Assembly: GCF_037201975.1 (NCBI RefSeq)
Contig: NZ_CP147520.1
Location: 4,154,001 to 4,218,000 of the forward strand
Origin: Streptomyces sp. TG1A-60
GTDB taxonomy: Bacteria > Actinomycetota > Actinomycetes > Streptomycetales > Streptomycetaceae
Direction of reading: 5' to 3'
Length of the DNA stretch: 64,000 nt
How positions within the stretch are numbered: position 1 is the first letter of the stretch; each line of letters begins with the position of its first letter. The notes under the pieces were generated by a model. That model ran no database searches. It was not told the DNA's origin and saw only the letters and a program-made list of their open reading frames with translations. The position numbers and the translations under genes were made by a program. Of the stretch, positions 6,232 to 43,341 are shown piece by piece.

Positions 6232-6315
<84 letters not shown>

Positions 6316-6972
6316 CCGTTTCGCTGTCGCTGTGACTTGGCCGGATTCTGGGCCCGAGGGTGCGTGCGGGGAGGTACTGGGGCTGTGCATGAGCCCCGAC
6401 GCATCCTGGTTGCTCGGCGGCTGATGCCGGGAGGGGTGGGTTTCGCTCACCGGCGCTCGCAGGGTGCCGCCCGCGCTCACCCGGGCCGCCCCAGCGGCAC
6501 GACTGCCCGCAGTTGGGGCCAGCGGTGCAGGTGGTTGGGGCCGGCGGGAAGCGGCAGGGGCTAGCCGGGCAGTGGTCGTGTGTGTGGGCGGGGGGCCGGC
6601 TGGGGCAGGTCGGGCGGTGCCAGGGCCGAGCAGTGCGGTGGCTGTGGCGAGCGGAGCAGTGACTGGGCCGACCCGATGGCGTCCCGCCGGGTGGCGTAGC
6701 CGATCAGGGCGCCGGAAACCGCAGGTCAGGGACGGTGGCTCCGTCGGACCAGGGGTTCAACTCGCCTCAGCAGGACGCCTCGTGGGCTGCCGCCTCTGCG
6801 GAGATCGTCAGAGGCCTCGTACCGGAACGTATAACGCTTGATCCCCTACACCACGACGCGGGACGCGACCGCCGGCCCGGCAGTGACTGCGGCGGCCGGG
6901 GCCGTGGAGGGGGTCAGCCCGGCGGTGAGTGGGGCGAGTGGAGGGGGCCGTGGTGTTGCCGTACTGCGTGGC
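6316..6972. other. non-coding stretch after tRNA-Ser
   Basis: I see no convincing gene in this stretch of about 650 bp. The open frames have poor codon-position bias. It contains one copy of a dispersed GC-rich palindromic repeat (6434-6530) that recurs at 10911-11030. Confidence 0.5.
6434..6530. repeat. dispersed intergenic repeat, copy A
   Basis: The segment contains CACCGGCGCTCGC followed by GCCGCCCCAGCGGCACG, and matches 10911-11030 with small gaps. Both copies lie between genes and contain short inverted repeats. It looks like a REP-like element of the genus. Copy A is the more degenerate. Confidence 0.55.
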
Positions 6973-7914
6973 TCACTGGTTCGCGGGTCGGCTCAGCAAT
7001 CGCTCCAGCACCCTCGCGATGCCGTCGTCGTCGTTGGAGGAGGTCACTTCGTCGGCGATCGCCTTGAGGTCTGCATGGGCGTTGGCCATGGCTACGCCAT
7101 GGGTGGACCAGGTGAACATGGGGATGTCGTTGGGCATGTCGCCGAAGGCGATGGTGTCGGTGCGCTTCGCACCGAGGCGGCGGGCGGCGAGGGAGAGACC
7201 GGTGGCCTTGGTGAGACCGAGAGGGAGGAGTTCGACGATGCCCTCGCCGGCCATGGCGACCGTGACGAAACCGCCGGCGGCCTGACGGGAGGCTTCGGCG
7301 AGTTCGTCGGAGGTCAGGGTGGGGTGCTGTACGTACAGCTTGTTCAGCGGGGCGGCCCACAGGTCGGACACGTCCGTGAACGGGGTGGTCGGCAGGGGGC
7401 CGTTCAGGGCGTAGCCGGGGCCGACCAGTACCTCGCCGTCCAGGCCGGCGCGGCTGGCGGCCAGGTACAGCGCACCGACCTCCGCCTCGATTTTGGCGAG
7501 GGCCACGGCTGCGAGCTGCCGGTCCAGGGTGACGGCCGTGAGCAGGCGGTGCTCTCCGGCGTCGTAGACCTGGGCGCCCTGGCCGCAGACGGCCAGTCCC
7601 CGGTAGCCGAGGTCGTCGAGGACGTGGCGGGTCCAGGGGACGGCCCGGCCGGTGACGACGATGTGGGCGGCGCCCGCCGCGGTGGCCGCGGCGAGCGCCT
7701 CACGGGTGCGTCGGGAGACCGAGTGGTCGGAGCGCAGGAGCGTTCCGTCGAGGTCGGTCGCGATCAGCTTGTACGGGAAGCCCGAGAGTTCCGCGGGCCC
7801 CGAGGACTCCTTGGACCGCATGGGCCCCGCGGACCGCACGGGTTCCGTGGACTGCGAGGACTCCTTGGATCCCATTGGTTTCCTGGGGCCCTCGGCGGCA
7901 GCCGCTTCACTCAC
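6973..7914 (-). CDS. HAD-superfamily hydrolase (Cof-like)
   Basis: This 313-aa protein has a HAD core starting near residue 48: motif I is [10 protein letters not shown], motif II is VVTGR, and motif III/IV is [11 protein letters not shown], with a Cof-type cap between. The first 47 residues are a low-complexity Ser/Gly/Pro tail that may be unstructured or wrongly included. The GTG start overlaps the serS stop as GTGA, so it is translationally coupled to serS. Members of this family dephosphorylate sugar phosphates or nucleotides; the substrate here is unknown. Confidence 0.85.
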
Positions 7915-9851: not shown

Positions 9852-10787
9852 TTAGAAGCGGCCGTCCTGGCAGCGTGCCACCCAGTCCGCCGCGGCCACG
9901 AACTCGGTGTCGGACGTTCCCGGCAGAGTGGGCCGGACCTTCGCGGTGGCGGCGTCGGCACGCGGATAGGAACCGAGGAAGCGCACCTGGAGGCAGATCC
10001 GCTTCAGACCCATCAGGGCCTCGGCCACGCGGCGGTCGGAGATGTGGCCCTCGGCGTCGATGGCGAAGCAGTAGTTGCCGATGCCCTCGCCGGTCGGGCG
10101 GGACTGCAGCAGCATGAGGTTGACGCCGCGGACGGCGAACTCGCCGAGCAGGTCGCGCAGTCCGCCGGGGTGGTCGTCGCGCTGCCAGATGACGACGGAG
10201 GTCTTGTCGGCGCCGGTCGGGGCGGCGGGGCGGGCGGGGCGGCCGACCAGGACGAACCGGGTCTGGGCGTTCTCCGCGTCGTGGATCTCGGTCTCCAGTG
10301 CCTCCAGGCCGTACCGCGAGGCCGCGAACTCGCCGGCGAAGGCGGCGTCGTAGCGACCCTCCTGGACGAGGCGGGCGCCGTCGGCGTTCGAGGCGGCGGA
10401 TTCCCAGACGACGTCGGGCGGGAGGTTGGCCTTCATCCAATTGCGGACCTGCGGCTGGGCGGCCGGGTGCGCGGTGACCGTCTTGATCTCGGAGAGCTTG
10501 GTGCCGGGGCGGACCAGCAGCGCGAAGGTGATCGAGAGGAGCACCTCGCGGTAGATCATCAGTGGGGCGCCGACGACCAGCTCGTCGAGCGTGGTGGTGA
10601 TGCCGCCCTCCACGGAGTTCTCGATCGGGACGAACGCGGCCTCGGCCTCACCGTTGCGGACGGCGTCGAGGGCGGCGGGCACGGAGACCATCGGGACGAG
10701 CTCGCGGGTCGCGGACTCCGGCAGCGTGCGTAGGGCGACCTCGGTGAAGGTGCCCTCGGGGCCGAGGTACACGTAGCTGGCTGGCAT
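9852..10787 (-). CDS. pheA: prephenate dehydratase
   Basis: This 311-aa enzyme converts prephenate to phenylpyruvate in phenylalanine synthesis. The catalytic domain occupies residues 1-185 (YLGPEGTFTEVAL start, ENSVEGGITTTLDEL, and a TRFVLVGR segment). A C-terminal ACT domain (GVNLMLLQSRPTGEGIGNYCF) senses phenylalanine. It is the monofunctional form with no chorismate mutase. It stands alone, with a long non-coding region on each side. Confidence 0.95.
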   Translation of the reverse strand: MPASYVYLGPEGTFTEVALRTLPESATRELVPMVSVPAALDAVRNGEAEAAFVPIENSVEGGITTTLDELVVGAPLMIYREVLLSITFALLVRPGTKLSEIKTVTAHPAAQPQVRNWMKANLPPDVVWESAASNADGARLVQEGRYDAAFAGEFAASRYGLEALETEIHDAENAQTRFVLVGRPARPAAPTGADKTSVVIWQRDDHPGGLRDLLGEFAVRGVNLMLLQSRPTGEGIGNYCFAIDAEGHISDRRVAEALMGLKRICLQVRFLGSYPRADAATAKVRPTLPGTSDTEFVAAADWVARCQDGRF

Positions 10788-31270: not shown

Positions 31271-31358
31271 GGTGGGTTGCCCGAGCGGCCTAAGGGAACG
31301 GTCTTGAAAACCGTCGTGGCGCGAGTCACCGTGGGTTCAAATCCCACACCCACCGCCA
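31271..31358 (+). tRNA. tRNA-Ser (TGA)
   Basis: The acceptor is GGTGGGT/ACCCACC, the anticodon loop CTTGAAA gives TGA, the variable arm is long and the T-arm is GTGGG-TTCAAAT-CCCAC. CCA is encoded. It reads UCN codons. It marks the left side of the accessory island. Confidence 0.95.
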
Positions 31359-31398: not shown

Positions 31399-31552
31399 TG
31401 CTGTTGTTCGGTCCCCGCCAACGACCGCCGTTCCCGTGGTTTACCGCTCGATCGGGCACGGATGGGGCACGGCCGACTGACCCGTAGCGTGGGCAGAACG
31501 GCCCGCAGCGGAAGACCAGCCGGCTGGACCGACTCCATACCAGGATGAGGGC

Positions 31553-31819
31553 ATGCAGCCCGTAGACGTGCACAGCAATCTGCGCTTCCTACTTAACGAG
31601 TGGGATCCGATCGGCGTCGCTGATGACGTCCAGGATGAGTACGACTGTCTCATCGCTCCCCTCCTCACCCGTCTGCACGCTGGAGCCGGGCGGGCAGCGA
31701 TTGGCGAGTTCCTGGGGTCTGAGCTGGAAGATCACTTTGGCCTCGACCCTCAGCCCCAAGAAGTTGACCAGCTGGCGGACAAGCTTGTGGCCTGGTGGTC
31801 CACCGTCGGCACTGCTTGA
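31553..31819 (+). CDS. small conserved hypothetical protein (possibly DUF1871-like)
   Basis: This 88-aa acidic protein has the pattern LLNEWDPIGVADDVQDEYDCLI followed by a helical half. The WDPIGV start and the DEYD segment resemble DUF1871 proteins of Bacillus, but I cannot confirm this without a search. There is no membrane segment or signal. It starts at ATG 31553 about 155 bp after the tRNA terminator. It has moderate GC bias and is the last intact gene before the transposon remnants. Confidence 0.65.
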   Translation: MQPVDVHSNLRFLLNEWDPIGVADDVQDEYDCLIAPLLTRLHAGAGRAAIGEFLGSELEDHFGLDPQPQEVDQLADKLVAWWSTVGTA

Positions 31820-32079
31820 AGTCAGGTCGGCCAGTCTCAATGGCGAGGCAAGACATGTCTTCTTGCCCTGGGTCTTGTCGGGGCATCTTGGTGAGCTGGG
31901 TTTTTGCTGGTCAGGGGTGGTGGGACCGTGCTCCTGGTGGTCGTCCTTGGTCGTCGTTGGCCACTGGTGAGCGGCCTCGGACGGCCCAGGCACGGCCCGG
32001 CTTTGCCCGGTGGGGGGCGTTCGGTTCGTGAGCGTGCTGCTGGTGGCCTGCTCCGCGGTCATGTGCCGGGGCCCGGTCC
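31820..32079. other. unassigned sequence left of the ISAs1 remnant
   Basis: About 260 bp without a supported gene. It does not contain a recognisable ISAs1 left terminal repeat, so the left part of that element has been lost or replaced. Confidence 0.4.
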
Positions 32080-32266
32080 TTCGCAGCGATCGGACAGTGG
32101 GTGCAACCGTCGACGGCCTGGACTTCCCGCACGCCGCCCAGGTCGCCCGGGTCGTACGCCATCGCACCTGTCTGACGACCGGCAGGCGCAGCCGCGAGAC
32201 GGTCTATGTCATCACCGGCCTGAACAGCCAGGAAGGCTCCCCGCAGCGACTGGCGAAGATCATTAG
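32080..32266 (+). pseudogene. ISAs1-family transposase fragment, left of the composite insertion
   Basis: The frame encodes TVDGLDFPHAAQVARVVRH...SPQRLAKII, the central part of an ISAs1 (DDE) transposase. Its 5' part is missing. The frame is cut at 32266 by the IS1380-type segment. The C-terminal part continues at 41369, beginning SSQWLIESRLHFVRD. Joining the two across one copy of TTAG gives an uninterrupted reading frame, so they are two halves of one gene. Confidence 0.85.
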
Positions 32267-32594
32267 CCTCGGGCTTTCACGTGGTGGGCTGTCCGAAGCG
32301 TGATCGAAAATGCGAGAAGTGCTTCTGACCTGCAACGATAGGACTTGTCGAGGGTCCAGATCGTGCCGTGGAAGGAAGCACTTCTCAGGTGAAGAAGCGT
32401 ATCGGGTCGTACCCGCGTGTCCGCATCGAGGGCGGTGGCCGGGCGGTGGTCTCCCAGGCAGGGGGCGTGCTGCTGGTCGAGACCGTCCGCAAGTCCGGCT
32501 TGGGCTCCGCGATATCAGCGGCACTGGCGCCGTGGCGGAAGGCTCGGGCGGTGCACGATCCGGGCGAGACAGTGCTGGATGTGGCCCTCGCGGG
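32267..32594 (+). pseudogene. truncated left IS1380 copy (left end and transposase N-terminus)
   Basis: It carries the left terminal repeat, the leader and the first 65 or so codons of an IS1380 transposase from GTG 32389 (KKRIGSYPRVRIEGGG). Similarity to the complete copy at 39705 ends at about 32594, after LDVALA. The two copies differ at many residues, so they are diverged relatives rather than a recent duplication. The frame stays open to 32910 through unrelated sequence, giving a chimeric ORF. Confidence 0.8.
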
Positions 32595-33551
32595 CCGTCC
32601 CGGCGCAGCCGGCCCGCCGGGTACCGGCCAGGGCGAAGCATCCGGCAGGGGGTGCGCCGCCATCGGCGTCGGCCCGGAAGCTGGCCGGGAGGCTGGCGGC
32701 GAAGCAGCGGCGGACGTACGCGCCCCGCCGAAGCGGACGGCCCCCCGGAAGCCGGCCCCGCGTTGGACTGCCCCGCAGCGCAAGGCAGTTGAGGGCCCGC
32801 GGTACTCGGTCCCGGCGAAGCAGCAGATTGACCCGGGGTTCATGTGCGACCTGGCGAGGGGGTCCGTGGACAAGAAGTTGCAAGCGGCCTGTGACAAGAG
32901 TTGGAAGTGATTTTGCGCCGCCCGTGACGCCCTGGCGAGGAGCGGCGAAGCGCTGCCGCTCCTCGCCCTGTTCGCCCCAGTTACGCATGTAAAGTTCGGA
33001 CTGGCAGCAGCAATTTTCGCGTCCCACGTCGGCGAACCGGCTGTCGAGCTTTCCGACTATGCCTGATCGGTTGGGATGCACCGCGACTGTCTCGGTCGAA
33101 TCGAACAAGGCGGGTCAGGATCCGGCGTAGTGGCTGCCGCCGTCGGCGCAGGCGCTCTGCCGATACGGCGCGGAGGGGACCGTCAGGAAGCTCCGGCGGG
33201 TCGGTCTGGCGGAGAGCTGGAACGAGATCGGATGGGGAGCCGAGGTCGAACGGTCCTCCCGCACGGCCGCTCCTGCCAGGGTTTTCCGTCCGCGCGGCCA
33301 TCCGCCGGGCGTTCCGGGCCGACATGGAGGACGAGCTGCCGTTTTGTGCTCCGGCGCACGACACCAGGCCGGTACGCGCCAATTGTGGGTGGTATGCGCC
33401 TTCGCTGACTTGGTCGGCCTGGGCGACTCTGGAACGTCTTGTCGCTGCGACGGGTGGGGACGCCGTGCTGGGAAGAGTGGGGCAGCCGCGCTCAGCCCGG
33501 GTTCCACCAGCTTCCAGTCGCCGGCTCCAGTGCGCTGAACGGAGAGTTATT
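32595..33551. other. unassigned DNA between IS1380 fragment and class II cyclase gene
   Basis: About 950 bp with no gene I can support. The chimeric frame to 32910 ends in a lysine-rich stretch (APQRKAVEGPRYSVPAKQQ) that may be a remnant. The part at 33348-33410 is an inverted copy of 38811-38875. The last 100 bp should include the promoter of the terpene genes. Confidence 0.4.
33348..33410. repeat. left copy of a 65-bp inverted repeat bracketing the terpene genes
   Basis: The sequence CTCCGGCGCACGAC...TACGCGCCAATTGTGGGT...GCGCCTTCGC matches the reverse complement of 38811-38875 at most positions. It flanks the terpene genes and SulP remnant inside the larger transposon. Confidence 0.6.
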
Positions 33552-35153
33552 GTGCATGCCGAATCCGCCCCTCCCCGTGCTGTCGCTCCGCTGCCGCGTT
33601 CCCGCCGGGCGGGTTCGGGTGTGGGAATGGAGGCCGCCCGGGTCTGCCGGGACCTGGTGAGCCGGCTCGCGGCGCAGGTGACGCCGGACGGCTGTGCGCC
33701 GGGGCCGTGCGCGAGCCGGGTTCTGGAGTCGGCGCTGCTGCTGGCGCTGCTGCGCCGGGAGGGACAGCACCCTGGTGTGCAGAAGGGGCTCGAGGGCTTC
33801 TTGTCACGGGATACCGGTGGTGGCGGGAGTCGCTTCGACTCGGCACTGAGCGACGCGGTACTCACGGGCCGGCAGGCCGACGCGGACTGGGTGCATGCGG
33901 AGCTTCTCGCCGGCTTCGACCACTTCACCTTCGCCCGCAAGCGGTTGTTCTTCGATGTGTGTCTCGCGGCCGTCGGAGCGATCGACTTCCACCCGGGGAT
34001 GCGGCCGGAGCGCATCGACAGCGGGAACCGGGCACCCTGGGTTCAGATGATCATGCTGGCGCTCAAGGTGACGATCGCCCACGGACTGCGGCGGCCTGAG
34101 GCTGTCACCGCCGTCGAGCACGAACGGCTGGTGACGCTCCTGCGTGAAGGCCAGCGCCGCGGCGTGTGGGAGAACCACGTCACAGCGCACCTGCTGGCGC
34201 TCCTGGCCGTCAGCGCGGTCGCACCCCGCAGTGCCGACGTCGCCAAGGGCCTGCGTCTGCTGGTGGAGTGCGTGAACCCCGACGGCGGCCTACCCAGTAT
34301 CGCGAACCTGTCCGTGTTCTGCACCGGCGTCGCGGGTCTTGCCCTGGCCAGGGCGGGAGCTGATCGCCAGGTGACCGAGCGCATGGGCGACTACCTTGCG
34401 GCCAGGCAGGGCCCGGACGGCGGCTGGCCGTTCGGCGAGCACATGATGCAAAGCGACGTGGACACCACCTCCTACGCCCTCGCCTTCCTCGCCTTCCTCG
34501 ATACCGGGCGCTACGCCAAACCCCTCCAGCGGGCCGGGATCTACCTGTCTGCGATCGCGGGCCAGGACGGGGGCTTTCCCACCTACGTCGCGGGGGACCC
34601 GTCCGAGGTGGGAATGACCGGCGGGGCCGCCAGCGCCTTGGGCTGGGCCGGGGAGACACATGCCGGTCTGCTGGAGAACGCCGCGCGCTACCTGCTCGGG
34701 GCGCAGAAGCCTGATGGCACGTTCGAGCGCAGCTGGACGTTGAGCGAGGCGAACACCATCTGGCGGGCCATGTGGGCCCTGCACTCGCTGCCCCCTTCCC
34801 GCCTGCCGCAGCTACGTGCCGCTCGCGAACAGGCGGTGGCTCGCTCACACCGTTTCCTCGACCTGGCGCAGAACGGCGACGGAGGCTGGGGATACCGCCT
34901 CGGGGATGCGAGCGACACCACCAGTACCGCCTACTCGCTGCTTGCCCTGTCCGCGATGGGGCGGCCCGCCGGCACAGACGTCACCGCACGCCGCGGCGTC
35001 CTCCACCTCCTGGCCCGCCAGGAGGCCGATGGAGGATTCACCGCCCTACCCGACCAGGTCGCCCCCCGGCCGCTGCTCTTTGACGCCCCCGTCTTCGCCG
35101 ACATCTGGGCACTGCTCGCGCTCGGCGCCTGTGACGAGAGCCGGCGCTGGTGA
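33552..35153 (+). CDS. class II terpene (diterpene) cyclase, squalene-hopene/copalyl-diphosphate-synthase-like
   Basis: This 533-aa protein consists of prenyltransferase/squalene-oxidase type alpha-barrel repeats. The catalytic DxD(D/T)T acid motif is D302-V-D304-T-T-S. QW-like repeats are visible (QGPDGGWPF, GQDGGFPTY, QNGDGGWGY, RQEADGGFTAL). Such enzymes protonate and cyclise a prenyl diphosphate, most often GGPP, to a bicyclic diphosphate. The start GTG 33552 follows GGAGAG by 5 bp and gives a normal family length; the open frame to 33324 is non-coding. It is the first gene of the set with the class I synthase and P450. Product unknown. Confidence 0.87.
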   Translation: MHAESAPPRAVAPLPRSRRAGSGVGMEAARVCRDLVSRLAAQVTPDGCAPGPCASRVLESALLLALLRREGQHPGVQKGLEGFLSRDTGGGGSRFDSALSDAVLTGRQADADWVHAELLAGFDHFTFARKRLFFDVCLAAVGAIDFHPGMRPERIDSGNRAPWVQMIMLALKVTIAHGLRRPEAVTAVEHERLVTLLREGQRRGVWENHVTAHLLALLAVSAVAPRSADVAKGLRLLVECVNPDGGLPSIANLSVFCTGVAGLALARAGADRQVTERMGDYLAARQGPDGGWPFGEHMMQSDVDTTSYALAFLAFLDTGRYAKPLQRAGIYLSAIAGQDGGFPTYVAGDPSEVGMTGGAASALGWAGETHAGLLENAARYLLGAQKPDGTFERSWTLSEANTIWRAMWALHSLPPSRLPQLRAAREQAVARSHRFLDLAQNGDGGWGYRLGDASDTTSTAYSLLALSAMGRPAGTDVTARRGVLHLLARQEADGGFTALPDQVAPRPLLFDAPVFADIWALLALGACDESRRW

Positions 35154-35553
35154 CCAAGGCCGGCGACTGCCACACCGGGCACCGTAGGCATGCCACGCAT
35201 CGGACGACCAGCCGTGGGGCACCGCAGGGTGCTCTTCCCTTCCCGCCGCCGGGACGGCCACCAGCCACGCCTAGGGTCGGGCAGGAGATGAGCCGCTGTG
35301 AGGCTCGCATGGGCTGCTCCCCGACCCGCCGAGTGTGCGCGGCCGGTCAGGATGCGCCTGGAAACCCGCGCGGGATACGTCCACCCGCTCGGTACCGCAA
35401 GCCTGCGCCGAATCAGACCGGCTCCCGACCCCGGGCGCAGGGCTTGGCCCACGCGATGCTCCACAGCCCCCTGCGCCACTCCCACGCCGCCGCACGCCTG
35501 AGCCCGCCAGCGTCAGCGGCGCCCCGCACCTCGCCGTCAGCGAAAGGGAACCG
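35154..35553. other. 400-bp gap between cyclase and terpene synthase genes
   Basis: Open frames on both strands lack coding bias and no motif is recognised. The length is unusual for an operon, so the synthase may have its own promoter. The terminal CGAAAGGGAACCG is the ribosome site of the next gene. Confidence 0.4.
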
Positions 35554-36516
35554 ATGACCGAGCCGACCGGGGCCCCAGGACTGCTCACGTACGACTTCGG
35601 CATCCTTGTTCCCCACCGGATCCACCCGCGAGCCGAACACGTCGGCAACCGCCTGGCCGCGTGGGCGATGCGGATGGGCCTGACGGCCAGCACCGCTGAG
35701 GACACACGCCTGCGCCGTTCCGCATTCCACCTGGTGGCCGCCCGCTTCCTGCCCGACGAAGCCGAGACGGACGTCGAACTCTTCGCCCAATGGGTCGCCT
35801 GGCTCTTCCACCTCGACGACGAGCAGGACGAAGGCGCGATGGGCCGCTCACCCCAGAGAGTGCACGCCACCTACACAGCTGTCACTGCCGTCATCCAAGG
35901 CCGCCCCACACCCGCCGCAGGTCCGCCCGCGGTCAGGGCACTGGCCGACCTGTGGCCCCGCACCGCCGCGCGGATGTCCCCGGCGTGGCACGAGCGGATC
36001 CTGGGCCACGTCCACCGCCACCGCGACGCCTTCCTCACCCAGGCCACCCACCGGCAGGCCGGCACCTTCCCCACCCCGCAGGAGTATCCGAGCCTGCGCC
36101 GGGACGCCAACGGCATGTTCATGTACGACCTCGTCGAAGTCGCCTGCCGCACCGAAATCCCCCCGCACCTGGCCGCCAGCGCGGACTGGAACGAACTGTG
36201 CGCGGCTTCCAGCGACATCACCGCCTGGTGCAACGACGTCGTCTCCCTGCCCCGCGAACGGGCCAACAACGAACCCACCAACTACGTCACCGTCCTGCGC
36301 CACGCCCAAGGCTGCACCGAGCAGGAAGCCGTCGAGCAGGTCCGCGCACACATCACCCGACGGCTGCAGGACCTCCGCGAAACCGAGCGCGCTGTCCTCA
36401 CCGCGGCATACCAGGAAGAGCACGCCTCAGACCGGTTCCATCGCGTCGTGCGCATCATCGGTGACATGCCAGGCACCCACCTCGGCTGGATGCTCGCTTC
36501 CGGTCGCTACCTCTAG
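35554..36516 (+). CDS. class I terpene synthase
   Basis: This 320-aa single alpha-domain terpene synthase has the Mg-binding motif D88-D-E-Q-D92-E in FHLDDEQDE and the NSE triad N227-D-V-V-S231-L-P-R-E235. A late RxxRxxxDMP region appears as FHRVVRIIGDMPG. The class I active site ionises the diphosphate that the class II enzyme leaves intact, so the two probably act in sequence on one diterpene. The start ATG 35554 has AAAGGGAA upstream. A direct sesquiterpene role cannot be excluded. Confidence 0.87.
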   Translation: MTEPTGAPGLLTYDFGILVPHRIHPRAEHVGNRLAAWAMRMGLTASTAEDTRLRRSAFHLVAARFLPDEAETDVELFAQWVAWLFHLDDEQDEGAMGRSPQRVHATYTAVTAVIQGRPTPAAGPPAVRALADLWPRTAARMSPAWHERILGHVHRHRDAFLTQATHRQAGTFPTPQEYPSLRRDANGMFMYDLVEVACRTEIPPHLAASADWNELCAASSDITAWCNDVVSLPRERANNEPTNYVTVLRHAQGCTEQEAVEQVRAHITRRLQDLRETERAVLTAAYQEEHASDRFHRVVRIIGDMPGTHLGWMLASGRYL

Positions 36517-36604
36517 CTGCCGACTCCCCCCCCGTGTGGCGGCAGTCGGGAAACCGGCTGTCGCCACCGCACAAACCAGGTGAGCGGACCGGAGGACGGC
36601 ACAG

Positions 36605-37834
36605 ATGAAAGATGAGACCCGCACCGCACCGATCACGGCACTGCCCAGCAGACGCCGCTGCCCCATGGACCCACCGGACGAATACGCCCGCCTGCGGACC
36701 GAACACCCCGTGGCACGCCTGGCCTTCCCCGACGGCCCCCCAGGCTGGTTGGTCACCCGCTACGACGACGTCCGCGCCGGCCTGGCCGACCTGCGGCTCA
36801 GCTCCCGCCGACCCCACCTCAACTCCCAGGTCAGACCCAGTCTCATCACCGAAGCGGAGATGGCGCAGTTCCGGACATCGGACCTGCTGACCACCGACCC
36901 GCCCGAACACACACGGCTGCGGCATCCGCTCATCGGACAGTTCTCCATGCGCCGCATCCGCACGCTGCGCCCGCGCATCGAGCAGTACGTGGACGAACGC
37001 CTGAACGCCATCGCGGCAACGCCCGCCCGGCCGGTCGACCTTGTTGCCGCCCTCGCCCTGCCCGTGCCCTCCCTGGTGATCTGCGAACTGCTGGGCATCC
37101 CCTACGCCGACCACGACCACTTCCAGCGCCTCACCGGAGAGCTACTGGATCTGAACCGGACCCGACAGCAACTGCTGGCCAGCAAGAAGGCCATGCACAC
37201 CTACCTGCGCAGCCTGGTGGAGGCCAAGCGGCAAGACCCGGCCGACGACCTCCTCAGCGTGCTGACCCAGCACCGTCCGCCCAGCGGCCCGCCACTGGCC
37301 ATCGACGAGATCGTCTCCCTCGGCCAACTGATGCTCATCGCCGGTCACGAGACCTCGGCGAACATGATCTCCCTCGGCATCTTGACCCTGCTGCGCTCAC
37401 CCGCCCTCTGGCAGGGCCTGCGAGCAGACCCGTCGCTCATCGAGAACGCCATCGAGGAACTGCTGCGCTACCACACCATCCTGCAGTTCGGACTGCTCAG
37501 GGTCGCCCGTGCAGCACTCGTTATCGGGGGACAGCGGATCGAACCCGGAGAACGCGTTGTCCTCCACATGCCTGCCGCGAACCGTGATCCGCTGAAGTTC
37601 CCCGATCCCGACCGCCTCGACCTCCACCGCCCCAACAGCCGCCAGCACCTCAGCTTCGGCCACGGACCCCACCAGTGCATCGGCCAGCAACTAGGACGCC
37701 TCGAGATCGAAATCATCCTGACCAAGCTGCTGCACCGCTTCCCCACCCTCCAACTGCACGATGCAAGCACCCCACCTGCCACCCACGACCATGCGGTCGT
37801 CTACGGACTCCGAGCCCTGCCGGTCACCTGGTGA
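36605..37834 (+). CDS. cytochrome P450 of the terpene cluster
   Basis: This 409-aa soluble bacterial P450 has the I-helix oxygen motif AGHETSA, ExxR in EELLR and the haem loop FGHGPHQCIGQQLGR with Cys358 as the thiolate ligand. Sequence style is CYP105/107-like. It follows the class I synthase by 88 bp and should oxidise its hydrocarbon or alcohol product. No ferredoxin or reductase gene is nearby, so host electron partners are needed. Confidence 0.93.
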   Translation: MKDETRTAPITALPSRRRCPMDPPDEYARLRTEHPVARLAFPDGPPGWLVTRYDDVRAGLADLRLSSRRPHLNSQVRPSLITEAEMAQFRTSDLLTTDPPEHTRLRHPLIGQFSMRRIRTLRPRIEQYVDERLNAIAATPARPVDLVAALALPVPSLVICELLGIPYADHDHFQRLTGELLDLNRTRQQLLASKKAMHTYLRSLVEAKRQDPADDLLSVLTQHRPPSGPPLAIDEIVSLGQLMLIAGHETSANMISLGILTLLRSPALWQGLRADPSLIENAIEELLRYHTILQFGLLRVARAALVIGGQRIEPGERVVLHMPAANRDPLKFPDPDRLDLHRPNSRQHLSFGHGPHQCIGQQLGRLEIEIILTKLLHRFPTLQLHDASTPPATHDHAVVYGLRALPVTW

Positions 37835-38027
37835 TCGACCAAGGAGCGGGGAGGAAGTGTCGGCCGACTCCCGGTGGGTGCTCACGCGTGACGGTGAGGG
37901 TGATTACAGCGAAAGCGGCAGGAACGGCACTGGCCACGGCGCAACCAGCGTCAGCGGGAGGGATCGGCGACTTTCTGTCACCGGACTTCGGCGTGGCTGC
38001 TGTGACCATCACAGCCCCGCCCGCGCC

Positions 38028-38635
38028 ATGATCGGCCAGACGATGATCAACGCGAAGGTCGGCGCGTTCCTGATGGTGCTGTGCATCGTGGCCCCGTCTC
38101 CGACATCCCCATGGCCGCCCTCGTCGCCGTCATGATCATGGTGTCCTTTGCGACCTTCGACTGGCACTCCATCGCACCCAAGACACTCAAGCGGATGCCC
38201 ACCGGGGAGATCGCCGTCATGGTGATCACCGTCGCCTGGGTGGTCGCCAGCCACAACCTCGCCATCGGCGTCATCCTCGGCTCGGTCACCGCCATGGTCA
38301 TCTTCGCCAGGCGCGTCGCCCACCTTGCCGAGGTCACCGCAGTGGTCGACCCCGACGGCAAGACAGTGGTCTACCGGGTGAACGGCGAGCTGTTCTTTGC
38401 CTCATCCAACGATCTCGTCGGCCAGTTCAACTACGCCACCGACCCGAAGAAGGTCGTCATCGACCTCTCCGTCGCCCACGTCTGGGACGCTTCCTCCGTC
38501 GCCGCCCTCGACGCCATCGAGACGAAGTACGCCCAGCGATGCAAGACCGCCGAGATCACCGGCCTGAACGACCCCAGTGCCGACCTCCACGGCAAACTCA
38601 CCGGCGAACTCGTCGGCAGCCACTGTCACGGCACC
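38028..38635 (+). pseudogene. decayed SulP-family anion transporter (C-terminal part with STAS domain)
   Basis: MIGQTMINAKVGAFLMVLCIV, then after a frame change VSDIPMAALVAVMIMVSFATFDWHS and the helices to FARRVAHL, match the last membrane segments of SulP sulfate/bicarbonate transporters. A STAS domain follows (VYRVNGELFFASSNDLVGQF...VIDLSVAHVWDASS). The first two thirds of the gene are missing, an internal deletion and frameshift are present, and the normal stop has become a sense codon at GSH. It is not functional. A perfect 19-bp terminator follows. Confidence 0.82.
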
Positions 38636-38638
38636 CGA

Positions 38639-38681
38639 ACTGCGAGAGGACCCCGGCCAGGCGCCGGGGTCCTCTCGCAGT
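38639..38681 (+). terminator. very strong terminator after the SulP remnant
   Basis: A perfect 19-bp stem starting ACTGCGAGAGGACCCC with a 5-nt loop. It follows the SulP remnant and would shield downstream DNA from read-through. Confidence 0.85.
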
Positions 38682-38810
38682 GCTCCGGTGCAGGTCAGCA
38701 GTTCTGCCCCGGCGGCGAGCCGTTGGGTCGCGTTCGGCGACATGCCGGGCGACCGCGTCGAGGCCGGGGCGGGCGTACCGCTCCAGGGAGCGGACGGAGG
38801 AGTGTGGATC

Positions 38811-38875
38811 GAGTCCGCGAAGGCGCGCATTACCCACAATGGGCGCGTAACGCGACGGGCGTAGTGCGCCGGAGC
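38811..38875. repeat. right copy of the 65-bp inverted repeat
   Basis: Reverse-complement relative of 33348-33410. Its core TTACCCACAATGGGCGCGTAA is itself close to a palindrome. Confidence 0.6.
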
Positions 38876-39016
38876 TGCCGCAACCCTGCTGCTGCACCCC
38901 GGTCGCGCAGGCCGCAAAGTGCCCCGGACCTGCCGCGCCGCTGCGCATGGGGGCAACCGTCGCATGTCATCATTAACTCCGTCACTACATGTCACGATTA
39001 CATCGCGGAGAGTGAA

Positions 39017-39573
39017 ATGGGCAACGGGTTTCCGACCGAGAAATTCTTCCGCATCATCAACGAGGACACGGGGCTGTGTCTGGCTGCCGCAGACGGGGGA
39101 CGTCCTACGGCATGCAGGAGGCGCATGACCGCTGGACTGGCGAGAAGGGCTTCATCCCCTACAGCCACACCAAAGACCAGGTCCTGGTCGTGAGCCGTCC
39201 CAGGAACGCGAGGCGCGAGATCTGGTTCTTCGACGACAGGGCGAACACCTACGGCGACGAATTCTGGCACCTGGTCAACATCAACAAGGACATCCGCAGT
39301 GCGTACGCCCTCCATGTCGGGGTGGTCGGCTTCGGAGGCCCGGTTGAGGTGGGCCTGTTTGGCTGGGGCAGGCAGGACCAGACCCAGTGGAAGGCCGACG
39401 GCGGAATGTTCTGGCCGGGGTCACATGAGGACAAGGTCGTCACCGTCCTCTCGGACGGCGACGGTAACCACCGGGCCGTCGTGGCGGATCGCGGTGCCCC
39501 GAACCAGCAGTGGCGCTTCGAAGAAGTAGAGGTACCAGGCGAATCCGTCCCCACCCGCAGGAACGACACGTGA
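39017..39573 (+). pseudogene. lectin-like/unknown protein gene with a frameshift in a G5 tract
   Basis: Translation from ATG 39017 (GGAGAG upstream) gives GNGFPTEKFFRIINEDTGLCLAAADGG and then loses sense at GGGGGACGTCC. The next frame continues TSYGMQEAHDRWTGEKGF... to QQWRFEEVEVPG, ending at 39573. One extra G at 39095-39099 would join both into about 185 residues. RIINEDTGLCLAA and QQWRF resemble ricin-B-type carbohydrate-binding repeats, though only loosely. It may be a sequencing error, a slipped phase-variable gene or a true pseudogene. Confidence 0.65.
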
Positions 39574-39704
39574 GCGGCGGACCGTCACGGAGGGCACAAG
39601 CGCCGACTTACACCCAGATACTCCTCAACCTCCGCTAACTGGGTAGCCGGGGTGGGCGGTGGCGCGGTTCACTCCGCGCCGCCCCCGCAGGTGGCCAGCG
39701 TCAA

Positions 39705-41364
39705 ACTCGCGCTTTCATGAGACGGGCTGTCCGACGGGTGGTCAGGGAAGCGAAAAGTGCCTCTGACCAGCAAGAATGAGGATTGTCGAGGTCCTTGTTC
39801 CTGCCACCGTCGGAGGCACTTCCCAGGTGAAGAAGCGTATCGGGTCCTATCCCCGGGTCCGTATTGAGGGCGGTGGCCATGCGGTGGTGTCCCAGGCTGG
39901 GGCCGTGCTGCTGGTCGAGACCGCCCGCAAGGCCGGGCTGGACCGGGCGGTATCGACGGCGCTGACGCCGTGGCGACGCCCGAGGGCGGTGCACGATCCG
40001 GGCAAGATCCTGCTGGACGTGGCCCTCGCGGTCGCGCTGGGCGGGGACTGCCTCGCGGATGTCGAGATGCTGCGGGCCGAACCGGCCGTGTTCGGGCCGG
40101 TGGCCTCCGACCCGACGGTCTCCCGCCTCATCGACACACTCGCCGCCGCTGGGCCGAAGGCCCTCCACGCGATACGGGCCGCGCGGGCCGAAGCGCGCGA
40201 GCGCGTCTGGAACGTGGCCAAGAACGCGGCCCCGAACGCCGCAGGGCAGGTGATCGTGGACCTGGACGGGGTGCTCGTGCTGGCCCACTCCGAGAAGCAG
40301 GACGCCACCGCGACCTGGAAGAAGACCTTCGGACACCATCCTCTGATGGGGTTCGTCGATCACGGAAGCGGTGGCAGCGGGGAGCCGGTGGCCGGCCTGC
40401 TCAGGCCCGGCAACGCTGGCAGCAACACCGCCGCCGACCACATCGCCACGGCCCAACTCGCCCTGGCCCAGCTGCCGAAGAAGTACCGGCGTGGACGCCA
40501 GACGCTGATCCGTACCGACTCCGGAGGCGGAACACATGAGTTCGTCGCCTGGCTGGCCCAGCGGGGAAGGTGGCTGTCGTACTCGGTCGGCATGACCATC
40601 ACCGACGCCATCCACGAGGCCGTCCTCAAGGTCCCGCCCGCCGCGTGGACGGTGGCCGTCGAGCCGGGCGGCGAGATCCGCCACGGTGCCTGGGTCGCCG
40701 AACTCGACGGCGATGTACTCAAGGGCTGGCCGAAGGGGATGCGGCTGATCGTCCGCAAGGAACGGCCGCATCCGGGCGCGCAGTTGCGCTTCACCGATGC
40801 CGAAGGGCTGCGGCTCACCGGGTTCGCGACCAACACCACCGGCGTCCCGATCGCCGCACTCGAACTGCGGCACCGCCAGCGGGCACGCGCCGAGGACCGC
40901 ATCCGAAACGCCCGCGCCACCGGCCTGCGCAACCTGCCCCTGCACGACACCGCGCAGAACCAGATCTGGCTGGAGATCGTCCAGATCGCCCTCGACCTGC
41001 TGGCCTGGATGCCCATGCTCGCCCTGACCGGCAAATCCCGCAGATGGGAGCCCCGCCGTCTCCGGCTCCGCCTCTTCTCCGCCGCCGCCCAGATCGTCAC
41101 GACCGCCCGCCGCCGGCACCTGAGATTCGCGCGCCACTGGCCATGGACCGACGTCATCACCGACGCCCTGGCACAGCTCGAAGCTCTCCCGAACCCCGGC
41201 TGACCAGCACGTTCCCGTCCCTACGAGCAGCATCGCCCCGACCGGAGCTGTGGAACCCGGCGCCCACCCGACGCGACAGCCGGGCTATCAGCCTGGCCAC
41301 CACCAGCCCGAACAACCGAAACGGCCCGCCGAAGAAACCGACGGACCGTCACGAAAGATCGAGG
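39705..41364 (+). mobile_element. complete IS1380-family element (right arm of the composite)
   Basis: It runs from the left repeat ACTCGCGCTTTC (39705-39716) to the right repeat GAAAGATCGAGG (41353-41364), about 1.66 kb, and contains one transposase gene. The left repeat differs at two positions from that of the truncated copy. Confidence 0.8.
39827..41203 (+). CDS. IS1380-family transposase
   Basis: This 458-aa DDE transposase begins KKRIGSYPRVRIEGGG. The catalytic core has VIVDLDGVLVLAHS (first Asp), LIRTDSGGGTHEF (second Asp) and a later acidic residue in the C-terminal half, before DTAQNQIWLEIV. It is intact and is the only complete transposase able to mobilise the 9.1-kb composite in cis. 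GGAGG lies 10 bp before the GTG; ATG at 39776 is an alternative start giving 475 aa. Confidence 0.92.
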   Translation: MKKRIGSYPRVRIEGGGHAVVSQAGAVLLVETARKAGLDRAVSTALTPWRRPRAVHDPGKILLDVALAVALGGDCLADVEMLRAEPAVFGPVASDPTVSRLIDTLAAAGPKALHAIRAARAEARERVWNVAKNAAPNAAGQVIVDLDGVLVLAHSEKQDATATWKKTFGHHPLMGFVDHGSGGSGEPVAGLLRPGNAGSNTAADHIATAQLALAQLPKKYRRGRQTLIRTDSGGGTHEFVAWLAQRGRWLSYSVGMTITDAIHEAVLKVPPAAWTVAVEPGGEIRHGAWVAELDGDVLKGWPKGMRLIVRKERPHPGAQLRFTDAEGLRLTGFATNTTGVPIAALELRHRQRARAEDRIRNARATGLRNLPLHDTAQNQIWLEIVQIALDLLAWMPMLALTGKSRRWEPRRLRLRLFSAAAQIVTTARRRHLRFARHWPWTDVITDALAQLEALPNPG

Positions 41365-41636
41365 TTAGTTCGCAGTGGTTGATCGAAAGCAGACTCCACT
41401 TTGTCCGTGACACCGCCTTTCGCGAGGACGCATCCAAGGTCCGCACCCAGCACTGCCCGGAAAACATGGCCACCTTGCGCAGCTTCGCGATCAACCGCCT
41501 CCGCGCCGCCGGCCACCACAACATCGCCGCCGGACTCCGCGACCTGTCCTACAAGCCGTTCACTCGTCCTCTGGCTCTCCTCGGACTCCGCTGACCAGCA
41601 CGAACGCATGAACAGTCAGACTTTGGAACCGCCCTG
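41365..41636 (+). pseudogene. ISAs1-family transposase C-terminal fragment and right end
   Basis: Codons from AGT 41367 encode SSQWLIESRLHFVRD ... PFTRPLALLGLR, the C-terminal end of an ISAs1 transposase, with TGA at 41592-41594. It is the partner of the fragment at 32080-32266. The right terminal repeat GACTTTGGAACCGCCCTG is at 41619-41636. Confidence 0.85.
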
Positions 41637-41784
41637 GCGCCCCAAGCCACATGAGGCCGAGGTTAGTTGACCGGCGAACGAGCGGGACCAGATGTGGGGC
41701 GAACGACCGGCACACCCCGTGACCGGGCCGGGCTAATGTGCCCGTCGAGAACCACACTCAAAGACGGGGAAACGGGGAACTTTC

Positions 41785-42657
41785 ATGCAGAGAATTCAGA
41801 GGCGGTTCACGCTGCTTCTCGCCGCAGCGCTGGCGGCTGTCCTCACCCTTTTCACAGTCGCACCGGCCAGCGCAGTGGGCAAGCCGCCCCGGTCGAACGG
41901 GAGCAGCAACCGGGTCATCTTCGTTCACGGGTACTCCCCATTCGCCAAGCATGACTGCACCAAATACTTCGACGCCGCCCGCAAGCATTTCGCAAGCAAT
42001 GAATGGAAGGGAAACCTGCTCACCTTCGGCTACTACTCGAAGAACAAGAACTGCTCGTACAGTGCCGGCGGCAACCGTGACACGTCCATCAAGGATGTGG
42101 CCAAGAAATTCGCGAACTATGTCTCCAAGCACTACACGAAGAATAACAAGAAGGTCGACGTCGTAGCCCACTCCATGGGCGGTCTCGTCGTCCGCGCCGC
42201 TCTGCACTACACCCATAAGGGCGCCGCGGGCTTCCCGAAGAAGCTCTACATCGAGGACGTCGTCACGCTCGGCACCCCGCACGCCGGAATCACAAAGAGC
42301 AGGGTGACCCTCTGCGGAAAGGCCCAGCAGTGCAAGGACATGACGCCGGGTAGCAGCTTCCTCAGGAATCTCCCGAGCAAGATGCCGAGTACCACCAAAA
42401 ACGGCAACATGAGCACCGACTGGACCACCGTCTCCTCGTTTGACGACGGAACCGTATCCGAATCATCCGGCATCGCCGGCACTGCGAACCACGAAGTCCA
42501 GTACAACGCCGGAATCAACCACGGCGAACTCAATACCACCAGCTCCGGAAAGCACAACGGCAGGATCAAGTACTCCACGACGTGGACCAATTGGCACAAG
42601 CGCATCTCGCCTGTGGGACAGGCGCGCCTGGCGGTGTACTGGCACTCCACGACCTGA
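41785..42657 (+). CDS. secreted alpha/beta hydrolase (lipase/esterase-like)
   Basis: This 290-aa secreted enzyme has a signal peptide of about 30 residues ending in APASA. The hydrolase fold starts at VIFVHGYSP, and the nucleophile elbow is AHSMGG (catalytic Ser). It is close to the EstA/LipB-type lipases of Bacillus and Streptomyces (GTPHAGITKS). Codon use is less GC-biased than in the neighbours (for example AAGAATAACAAGAAG), which suggests recent acquisition. It lies between a right ISAs1 end (41619) and a left ISAs1 end (42690). The substrate is unknown. Confidence 0.85.
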   Translation: MQRIQRRFTLLLAAALAAVLTLFTVAPASAVGKPPRSNGSSNRVIFVHGYSPFAKHDCTKYFDAARKHFASNEWKGNLLTFGYYSKNKNCSYSAGGNRDTSIKDVAKKFANYVSKHYTKNNKKVDVVAHSMGGLVVRAALHYTHKGAAGFPKKLYIEDVVTLGTPHAGITKSRVTLCGKAQQCKDMTPGSSFLRNLPSKMPSTTKNGNMSTDWTTVSSFDDGTVSESSGIAGTANHEVQYNAGINHGELNTTSSGKHNGRIKYSTTWTNWHKRISPVGQARLAVYWHSTT

Positions 42658-42689
42658 TCTCCGCTGAGACGCAGAGTAACGGAAGATGC

Positions 42690-42810
42690 CAGGGCGGTTT
42701 CAAAGTCCCGATGATCACGTGACTGTGCAGGTCGCGACGGTATGACGATGCGTGGTCAGCCCGGTCCGTACGCAACGAAGCTCCGGTTGATGCCGGTGAC
42801 CGATCAAGTC
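42690..42810 (+). mobile_element. left-end fragment of a second ISAs1-type element
   Basis: CAGGGCGGTTTCAAAGTC at 42690-42707 is the inverse of the right end at 41619-41636 with one mismatch. About 100 bp of element follows and is then fused to the broken Prim-Pol gene. The transposase is lost except perhaps a few N-terminal codons from 42742. Confidence 0.65.
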
Positions 42811-43341
42811 GCCTGCACCGCCCGGAGCTTCGATGTGCCGTCACCGCCGGAGCCGCGGATGTCGATGCCGGGGGCGAGGCGGCTCGCGGAGTTGGGGACG
42901 GCGACGTCGGGCGGGCCGGTGAGCCAGAGGTGACGCCCGCCGCTCGGGGTCAGGACGACGACCGTTTCGGGGACCGTGAACAGGTGGCGCAGGGCCAGTT
43001 CGCGCAGGGCCGCCGAGGAGTCCGTACCGGACCTCGTGTCGAGGTCGACGCCGATGAGGTGGTGGGGGCGGAGGCCGCAGGCGATGCCGTAGCCGGTGGC
43101 CCAGGGGGCGGCTGCGAAGAGTTCGCGGATGCGGCAGGGGTCGGTGGAGGCGTCGTAGACGCCGTGGCCGACCCGGCCGCACTCGCCATGGCAAGGAGGA
43201 GGTGAGGGGGCGTTCCGGTGAGGGGAGCGCAGGGCCGGAGGTTTGGAGCGGGACAGGGGGGATTACCGCCAGGCCGCGTTCGGCGGCGGAGAGGGCGTGC
43301 GCCAGGGCCAGGGTGCTGGCCTGCCGGTCCGTGGTGGCCAT
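42810..43341 (-). pseudogene. broken Prim-Pol (DNA primase/polymerase N-terminal) gene
   Basis: On the minus strand the first frame gives TTDRQASTLALAHALSAAERGLAVIPP. After a frameshift near 43190-43200 a second frame gives CGRVGHGVYDASTDPCRIRELFAAAPWATGYGIACGL, HHLIGVDLDTRSG (the catalytic DxD of Prim-Pol) and GGRHLWLTGPP. The gene then stops at the ISAs1 left end, so the C-terminal part is missing. It is a pseudogene, and a different subfamily from the intact gene at 22988. Confidence 0.75.

Follow-up and report, generated by a model that had tools for sequence, protein, structure and literature searches.

Within a 64,000-nucleotide stretch of the Streptomyces sp. TG1A-60 chromosome (here referred to as the window; positions 4154001-4218000 of a single 7.83-Mb contig, NZ_CP147520.1), a 9,098-bp segment at window positions 32267-41364 carries terpene biosynthesis genes between the outer ends of two IS1380-family insertion sequences (ISs) and lies inside the relic of another IS. 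Its left end belongs to a truncated IS1380 relic and its right end to a complete IS1380 element (Table 1). We consider it likely that the segment entered in one event driven by an IS1380 transposase, with the left end of the relic and the right end of the complete IS as the borders of the transposed unit.

Both borders can be placed to the base. An IS1380-type left end begins at 32267 with CCTCGGGCTTTCACGTGG, and an IS1380-type right end finishes at 41364 (reverse complement, CCTCGATCTTTCGTGACGG), each as in IS1380 relatives; the first 18 nt of the left relic are identical to those of two relatives (L090 and L113) that both have matching flanking 4-mers. TTAG directly abuts both outer ends and forms one 4-bp duplication, in line with the 4 to 5 bp given for the IS1380 family (PMC12116815). 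A sequence-only reading of this DNA had proposed a bounded segment with IS1380 ends and an exact TTAG duplication, and on both counts it was right. The flanking relic is of a family that we take to be ISAs1; its two fragments gave no Pfam match, and no family scan placed the target. When 32266 is joined to 41369, the sequence reads ...SPQRLAKIISSQWLIESRLHFVRD... and aligns without a gap at the joint to two insertion-free ISAs1 copies, L053 and L050. The former has a single open frame of 397 residues between stops, or 383 counted from its first methionine, and the latter is frameshifted upstream of the joint; in a third copy, L054, the alignment has small gaps no more than about 35 bases away from the joint. 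Removal of the segment therefore gives the continuity that had been claimed, except that the interrupted gene is itself a relic, without its 5' part and about 560 bp internally (at 32101/32106 the alignment jumps from 779 to 1340 of L053). Three relatives that are syntenic on both sides of the locus (G254, G382, and G336) have no match to the window between 31481 and 42843, so that only other ISAs1 copies are usable as an empty site. The empty site that the sequence-only reading had suggested looking for is thus represented by L053 and L050 and not by the orthologous locus of these relatives.

The weight of the shared TTAG can be gauged from 34 copies of related ISs in which both ends could be read, 33 of them independent (L088 and L089 share one site). 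Of about 30 genome loci, this set leaves out the segment's own copy (L102) and those with no readable end pair (L111, L112, L117, L122, L127, L128, and L131); among the plasmid loci, it leaves out those with unreadable ends (L087, L098, and the partial L099 and L101), one composite unit (L097), and a locus retrieved for another question (L100). Over the 68 ends, the flanking 4-mers were CTAG (22), CTAA (21), TTAG (17), TTAA (5), CTGA (2), and CCAG (1). They are mostly YTAR, and two random ends would agree by chance with a frequency of 0.27; the two 4-mers were identical in 19 of the 34 copies. The shared TTAG is therefore not strong evidence by itself. It is the gapless joining of the ISAs1 parts that, at the level of sequence, confirms a single insertion into the ISAs1 relic.

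The two ISs do not form a pair. The left relic and the right IS are 78 to 79% identical, and in the sets compared each is closer to other ISs: the left relic to L109 (93%) and then L046 (87%), and the right IS to L103 (92%) and then L104 (90%). Judged by these identities, they are different isoforms and not copies of one element. With respect to what defines a composite (class I) transposon, the outer ends abut one duplication, but two copies of the same IS are not present. The composite transposon of the sequence-only reading accordingly fits in function and not in strict structure, given that the isoforms differ, the left one is an end-bearing relic, and the right one has a changed inner end. 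The anatomy would also suit an ISEcp1-type unit, in that there is a single complete IS with a changed inner end, but the distant end here derives from an IS relic and is a true left repeat.

Over its full length, the right IS is 88 to 92% identical to four whole ISs (L103, L104, L106, and L107). Its transposase frame is intact: the protein scores 333.2 bits against NF033539 (cut-off, 180) and 308 bits against Pfam DDE_Tnp_1_4, and it retains all 24 aspartate and glutamate residues that are invariant among 12 copies, picked from 30 transposase frames for a length of 457 to 458 amino acids (aa). At three positions, it alone differs from the other 11 copies. The outer ends of the segment are likewise intact. 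The inner left end of the right IS is not: its first base is A, where 32 of 34 relatives have C and the other 2 have T, and the TCAA that precedes it is not YTAR. The earlier description of a truncated left IS that keeps its outer end and a complete right IS thus holds on both points and needs this altered inner terminus added to it.

Terminal bases of inverted repeats matter for cleavage in DDE elements. We propose that the complete right IS supplied the transposase and that its inner left end, with the terminal base changed, was weak or lost. For that reason, the transposase would have paired the right end of this IS with the distant left end of the relic. Everything between the paired ends, including the class II cyclase, class I synthase, and cytochrome P450 genes, would have been carried along, and the unit would have landed at a TTAG target in the ISAs1 relic beside a tRNA-Ser hot spot. 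The working unit is most likely the relic left end, the cargo, and the right IS. We infer that the relic left end was the one used, that the inner end had already changed when the transposition took place, and that the unit traveled in one piece.

A smaller unit with the same architecture is present at two unrelated sites. This 2.58-kb unit (2511-5088 of L097, from S. anulatus pYINM00001, and 558-3142 of L128, reverse complement, from genome G358) consists of about 136 bp of relic with a left end, then a pentapeptide-repeat gene, and then a full-length IS1380; the inner left end of this IS has degenerated alike at both sites. The two copies are 92.5% identical, and their homology ends within 2 bases of the unit ends; the L128 copy has a clean duplication (CTAA/CTAA). 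Like the terpene segment, it is bounded at both ends and combines a relic left end and a passenger with a full-length IS that has a degenerate inner left end; it differs in its size, its single passenger gene, and its occurrence at two sites. Because the same plan is found at two unrelated places, the arrangement of relic end, passenger, and full-length IS most likely itself moves, though the cargo differs. Of 392 genomes of the genus, three (G358, G116, and G155) were found to carry the pentapeptide gene, with no IS1380 match in the 3.7 kb examined around it in G116 and G155, and a plasmid search for near matches gave 4 records, only the S. anulatus one being full length.

A general route can be suggested, though we hold it at somewhat less than even odds: a Streptomyces IS1380 without an inner left end may become the tail of a longer transposon bounded by an old relic and so carry small biosynthetic clusters or single passengers, with the terpene and pentapeptide units as examples. 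If this is true, end borrowing turns scattered IS relics into the borders of new mobile units. ISs of this group are common in the genus, with an IS1380 match at an E value of ≤1e-200 in 123 of the 392 genomes. On the same chromosome as the segment, L051 (6050-6300) holds a miniature element of about 250 bp derived from IS1380, with two facing end-like repeats and unmatched flanks.

Several observations weigh against a single transposition event, some of them because they favor its main rival. The 9.1-kb unit is present as one copy in this genome; a search of 392 genomes of the genus showed no second, so that its movement is not seen directly, and no record in the plasmid collection covered 80% of it. 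Relatives were sampled evenly, not exhaustively, with about 1.5 kb of flank for most IS loci, and large units elsewhere would thus be missed. The suggestion that the unit may still be mobile keeps its footing in the intact transposase frame and outer ends, tempered by this single occurrence. The changed inner end of the right IS may be only weakened, since it differs by one base and since L093, which is changed at base 2, retains matching flanking 4-mers. In addition, the CTGA(A) on either side of the pentapeptide unit in L097 can be read as a 4-bp duplication only if a one-base offset is allowed.

The main rival is assembly in place. A simple IS1380 would have inserted into ISAs1 and made the TTAG duplication, and later homologous recombination with terpene genes and another IS1380 would have inserted the cargo while keeping the original outer ends and the duplication. 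The flanking 4-mers are unmatched in 15 of the 34 single IS copies, often as CTAA versus TTAG or CTAG, suggesting that IS copies often recombine with one another and that such structures could build in place. One relative, L109, is similar to the outer parts on both sides, with 93% identity to the left relic and 92% to the final 170 bp of the right IS, as this scenario predicts; those 170 bp are also matched by L104 (93%) and L099 (94%). Compared in 100-bp bins to its four best whole relatives, the right IS ranges from 78 to 97% identity, dipping to 80 to 83% in two inner bins versus L104, L106, and L107 and to 78% in one versus L103, and some mosaicism inside it is conceivable. In the last two bins, however, identity is 88 to 96%, with no drop at the right end. 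For the same reason, we dropped the idea of a chimeric right IS, which had come from an identity of 65 to 75% in the last stretch versus L048 and L088 and a high identity versus L090. Assembly in place would also need an extra deletion or illegitimate joining, because the left relic ends in non-IS DNA, and the pentapeptide unit shows the same architecture at unrelated sites, once with a clean duplication. We therefore regard it as an unlikely, if serious, alternative to the one-step entry of the unit.

Far less probable is the successive insertion of two IS1380 elements at the same TTAG, with the cargo arriving between them later by another route. Given the YTAR preference, each inserted IS offers a target in its own flank to a further one, and L091 indeed has two left ends back to back around a single TTAG. 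This order of events, however, predicts TTAG directly before the right IS, where TCAA and a changed first IS base are found, and it needs an unrelated later insertion exactly at the joint. That the left and right ISs are independent insertions, with frame continuity and TTAG coincidental, is barely credible and in the main refuted: a TTAG match by itself would arise by chance in about 0.27 of cases, but insertions at different places would not give ISAs1 parts that are exactly adjacent in uninserted copies.

Table 1. Features of the 9,098-bp segment and its surroundings (window positions)
Feature	Position	Strand	Basis
tRNA-Ser (TGA); start of the variable region, until the backbone resumes at 42844	31271..31358	+	ARAGORN; synteny with relatives L076-L078
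ISAs1 relic, left part; internal deletion at 32101/32106	32024..32266	+	Alignment to ISAs1 copies
Left target duplication, TTAG	32263..32266	.	Sequence reading
5' relic of an IS1380 element, 327 bp, outer left end intact	32267..32593	+	Alignment to IS relatives
Class II terpene cyclase, SHC-like, 508 aa, DVDTT at the DxDD position	33627..35153	+	Family and structure matches
Class I terpene synthase (Terpene_syn_C_2), 320 aa, motifs DDEQDE and NDVVSLPRE	35554..36516	+	Pfam; motifs read in the sequence
Cytochrome P450, 409 aa	36605..37834	+	Family scan
SulP/STAS C-terminal fragment; 81% match to another part of the same chromosome	38081..38625	+	Family scan
165-aa open reading frame without Pfam or NCBIfam match	39076..39573	+	Family scan
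Complete IS1380-family IS, inner left terminus ACTCGCGC (A instead of C)	39705..41364	+	Comparison with relatives
IS1380 transposase, 458 aa, GTG start	39827..41203	+	NF033539; length and ends as in relatives
Right target duplication, TTAG	41365..41368	.	Sequence reading
ISAs1 relic, right part	41369..41640	+	Alignment to ISAs1 copies

The cargo core (33528-37871) comprises the class II cyclase, class I synthase, and P450 genes. To this extent, the terpene cargo is as the sequence-only reading had described it; the unit also holds a SulP fragment and an unmatched open reading frame (ORF), and neither a prenyl diphosphate synthase nor a Nudix was seen among the ORFs scanned, which were part of those in the unit. 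Residues 7 to 500 of the class II cyclase are matched by solved structures, 7xq4 and others, which we take to be drimenyl diphosphate synthases. The GC content of the core is close to that of the window (69.8% versus 70.4%), and composition thus gives no sign of foreign origin. The cav drimane cluster of S. clavuligerus similarly brings together class II cyclase, class I cyclase, and P450 genes; it has three P450s, a Nudix hydrolase, and a DXDD cyclase (PMC11035983), whereas the cyclase here reads DVDTT. We rejected a donor within the same genome, since neither 37860-39704 nor 32590-33600 has a near-identical second copy there, the only matches being the 81% SulP stretch and short ones. A short inverted pair (33336-33410 and 38808-38875) surrounds the cargo, with both members matching a single stretch that lies next to the cluster in Streptomyces sp. 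378. A reading of this pair as a tyrosine-recombinase tail was not used, the ORF at 38598-38945 having no NCBIfam match.

The same cargo with other flanks, which the sequence-only reading had proposed as a check, was found in Streptomyces sp. 378 (L044/L049). This strain has the three core genes at 81% (33528-35271) and 85% (35515-37871) nucleotide identity, at another locus and on a contig other than that of the relative of the window's right flank, with no IS1380 match in the 17.5 to 20 kb examined. The case named as contrary, the same cluster in relatives with long conserved flanks beyond 32267 and 41364, was not seen. With the best few candidates per genome scored, whole class I relatives at ≥60% identity were found in 2 of the 392 genomes of the genus (its own and G281, which we take to be Streptomyces sp. 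378), plus a fragment in G243, and some terpene synthase match in 329 of them. The nearest class I relatives after Streptomyces sp. 378 in a large protein collection include those of Frankia and Parafrankia (56 to 63%). A class II enzyme at about 58 to 62% lies beside a P450 in Actinomadura rubrisoli and at three Streptomyces loci; among these four, only A. rubrisoli also gave a class I match, at 32%. On these searches, the distribution of the cargo is sporadic, as for mobile genes. Carriage of the cluster on plasmids was considered and rejected, as the plasmid collection held only distant relatives (class II, ≤42%; class I, ≤35%) and no close carrier. In G243 (L050), an ISAs1 element (6302-7601) lies about 2.3 kb from the partial class I relative (9904-10367) near a contig end, possibly by coincidence.

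The way in which small biosynthetic clusters hop from one Streptomyces genome to another is, as a rule, deduced from islands that lack clear borders. In the present case, the two borders, the duplication, and the target are placed to the base, the transposase has an intact frame, and there is a smaller unit of the same plan at two sites, which makes a direct assay possible. The sequence-only reading had called biosynthetic genes moved by a small composite transposon unusual in Streptomyces, a claim that must be softened in light of two published precedents. Tnces of Bacillus weihenstephanensis holds the cereulide gene cluster between two ISces copies (IS6 family), and a marked derivative transposed with a direct repeat (PMC4057527). 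It is likewise a biosynthetic cluster within an IS-bounded unit, but its ISces copies are in opposite orientation, its repeats are 8 bp, and it is plasmid borne (PMC4057527), whereas the segment here has a relic end, one complete IS1380, a 4-bp duplication, and a chromosomal location. The enterocin (enc) cluster of a sponge-associated Streptomyces was described as resembling a composite transposon, and its authors suggested transposition (PMC4018334). It too is a biosynthetic cluster of Streptomyces with related transposase genes on either side, one complete and the other truncated; these are of the IS110 type and lie within imperfect direct repeats of about 1,500 nt, and a reductase gene was probably lost on integration (PMC4018334). 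Unlike it, the unit described here has IS1380 ends, a 4-bp duplication, and a gapless target.

Closest in mechanism is ISEcp1/ISEc9 of the IS1380 family, which carries neighboring DNA by pairing its own end with a distant imperfect end and leaves 4- to 5-bp repeats (PMC12116815). The likeness lies in an IS1380-family element that pairs one own end with a distant end. The distant end of ISEcp1/ISEc9 is a weak look-alike of the right repeat (PMC12116815), whereas here it would be a genuine left repeat from a second IS1380. Among the titles and abstract openings in a partial text collection, we recognized none on a biosynthetic cluster carried by an IS1380 unit in Streptomyces. Composite-like elements with such clusters are already known; what appears new here is the use of IS1380, the proposed borrowing of a relic end, the base-exact borders, and the chromosomal target.

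The segment sits within a variable stretch (31481-42843). The backbone is kept in G254, G382, and G336 up to about 29870, again at the tRNA-Ser gene, where the match extends to 31480 in one of the three, and again from 42844. The stretch from this gene to 42844 behaves like an insertion hot spot in these comparisons; it is 11.5 kb long here versus about 870 bp in G254, 3.2 kb in G382, and 4.3 kb in G336. A lipase-like gene (41785-42657) separates the 3' end of the ISAs1 relic from the 5' piece of a second ISAs1 (42690-42843) that has the same orientation as the relic. A 46-nt inverted repeat (41593-41638 and 42688-42733) probably marks the ends of the two ISAs1 pieces.

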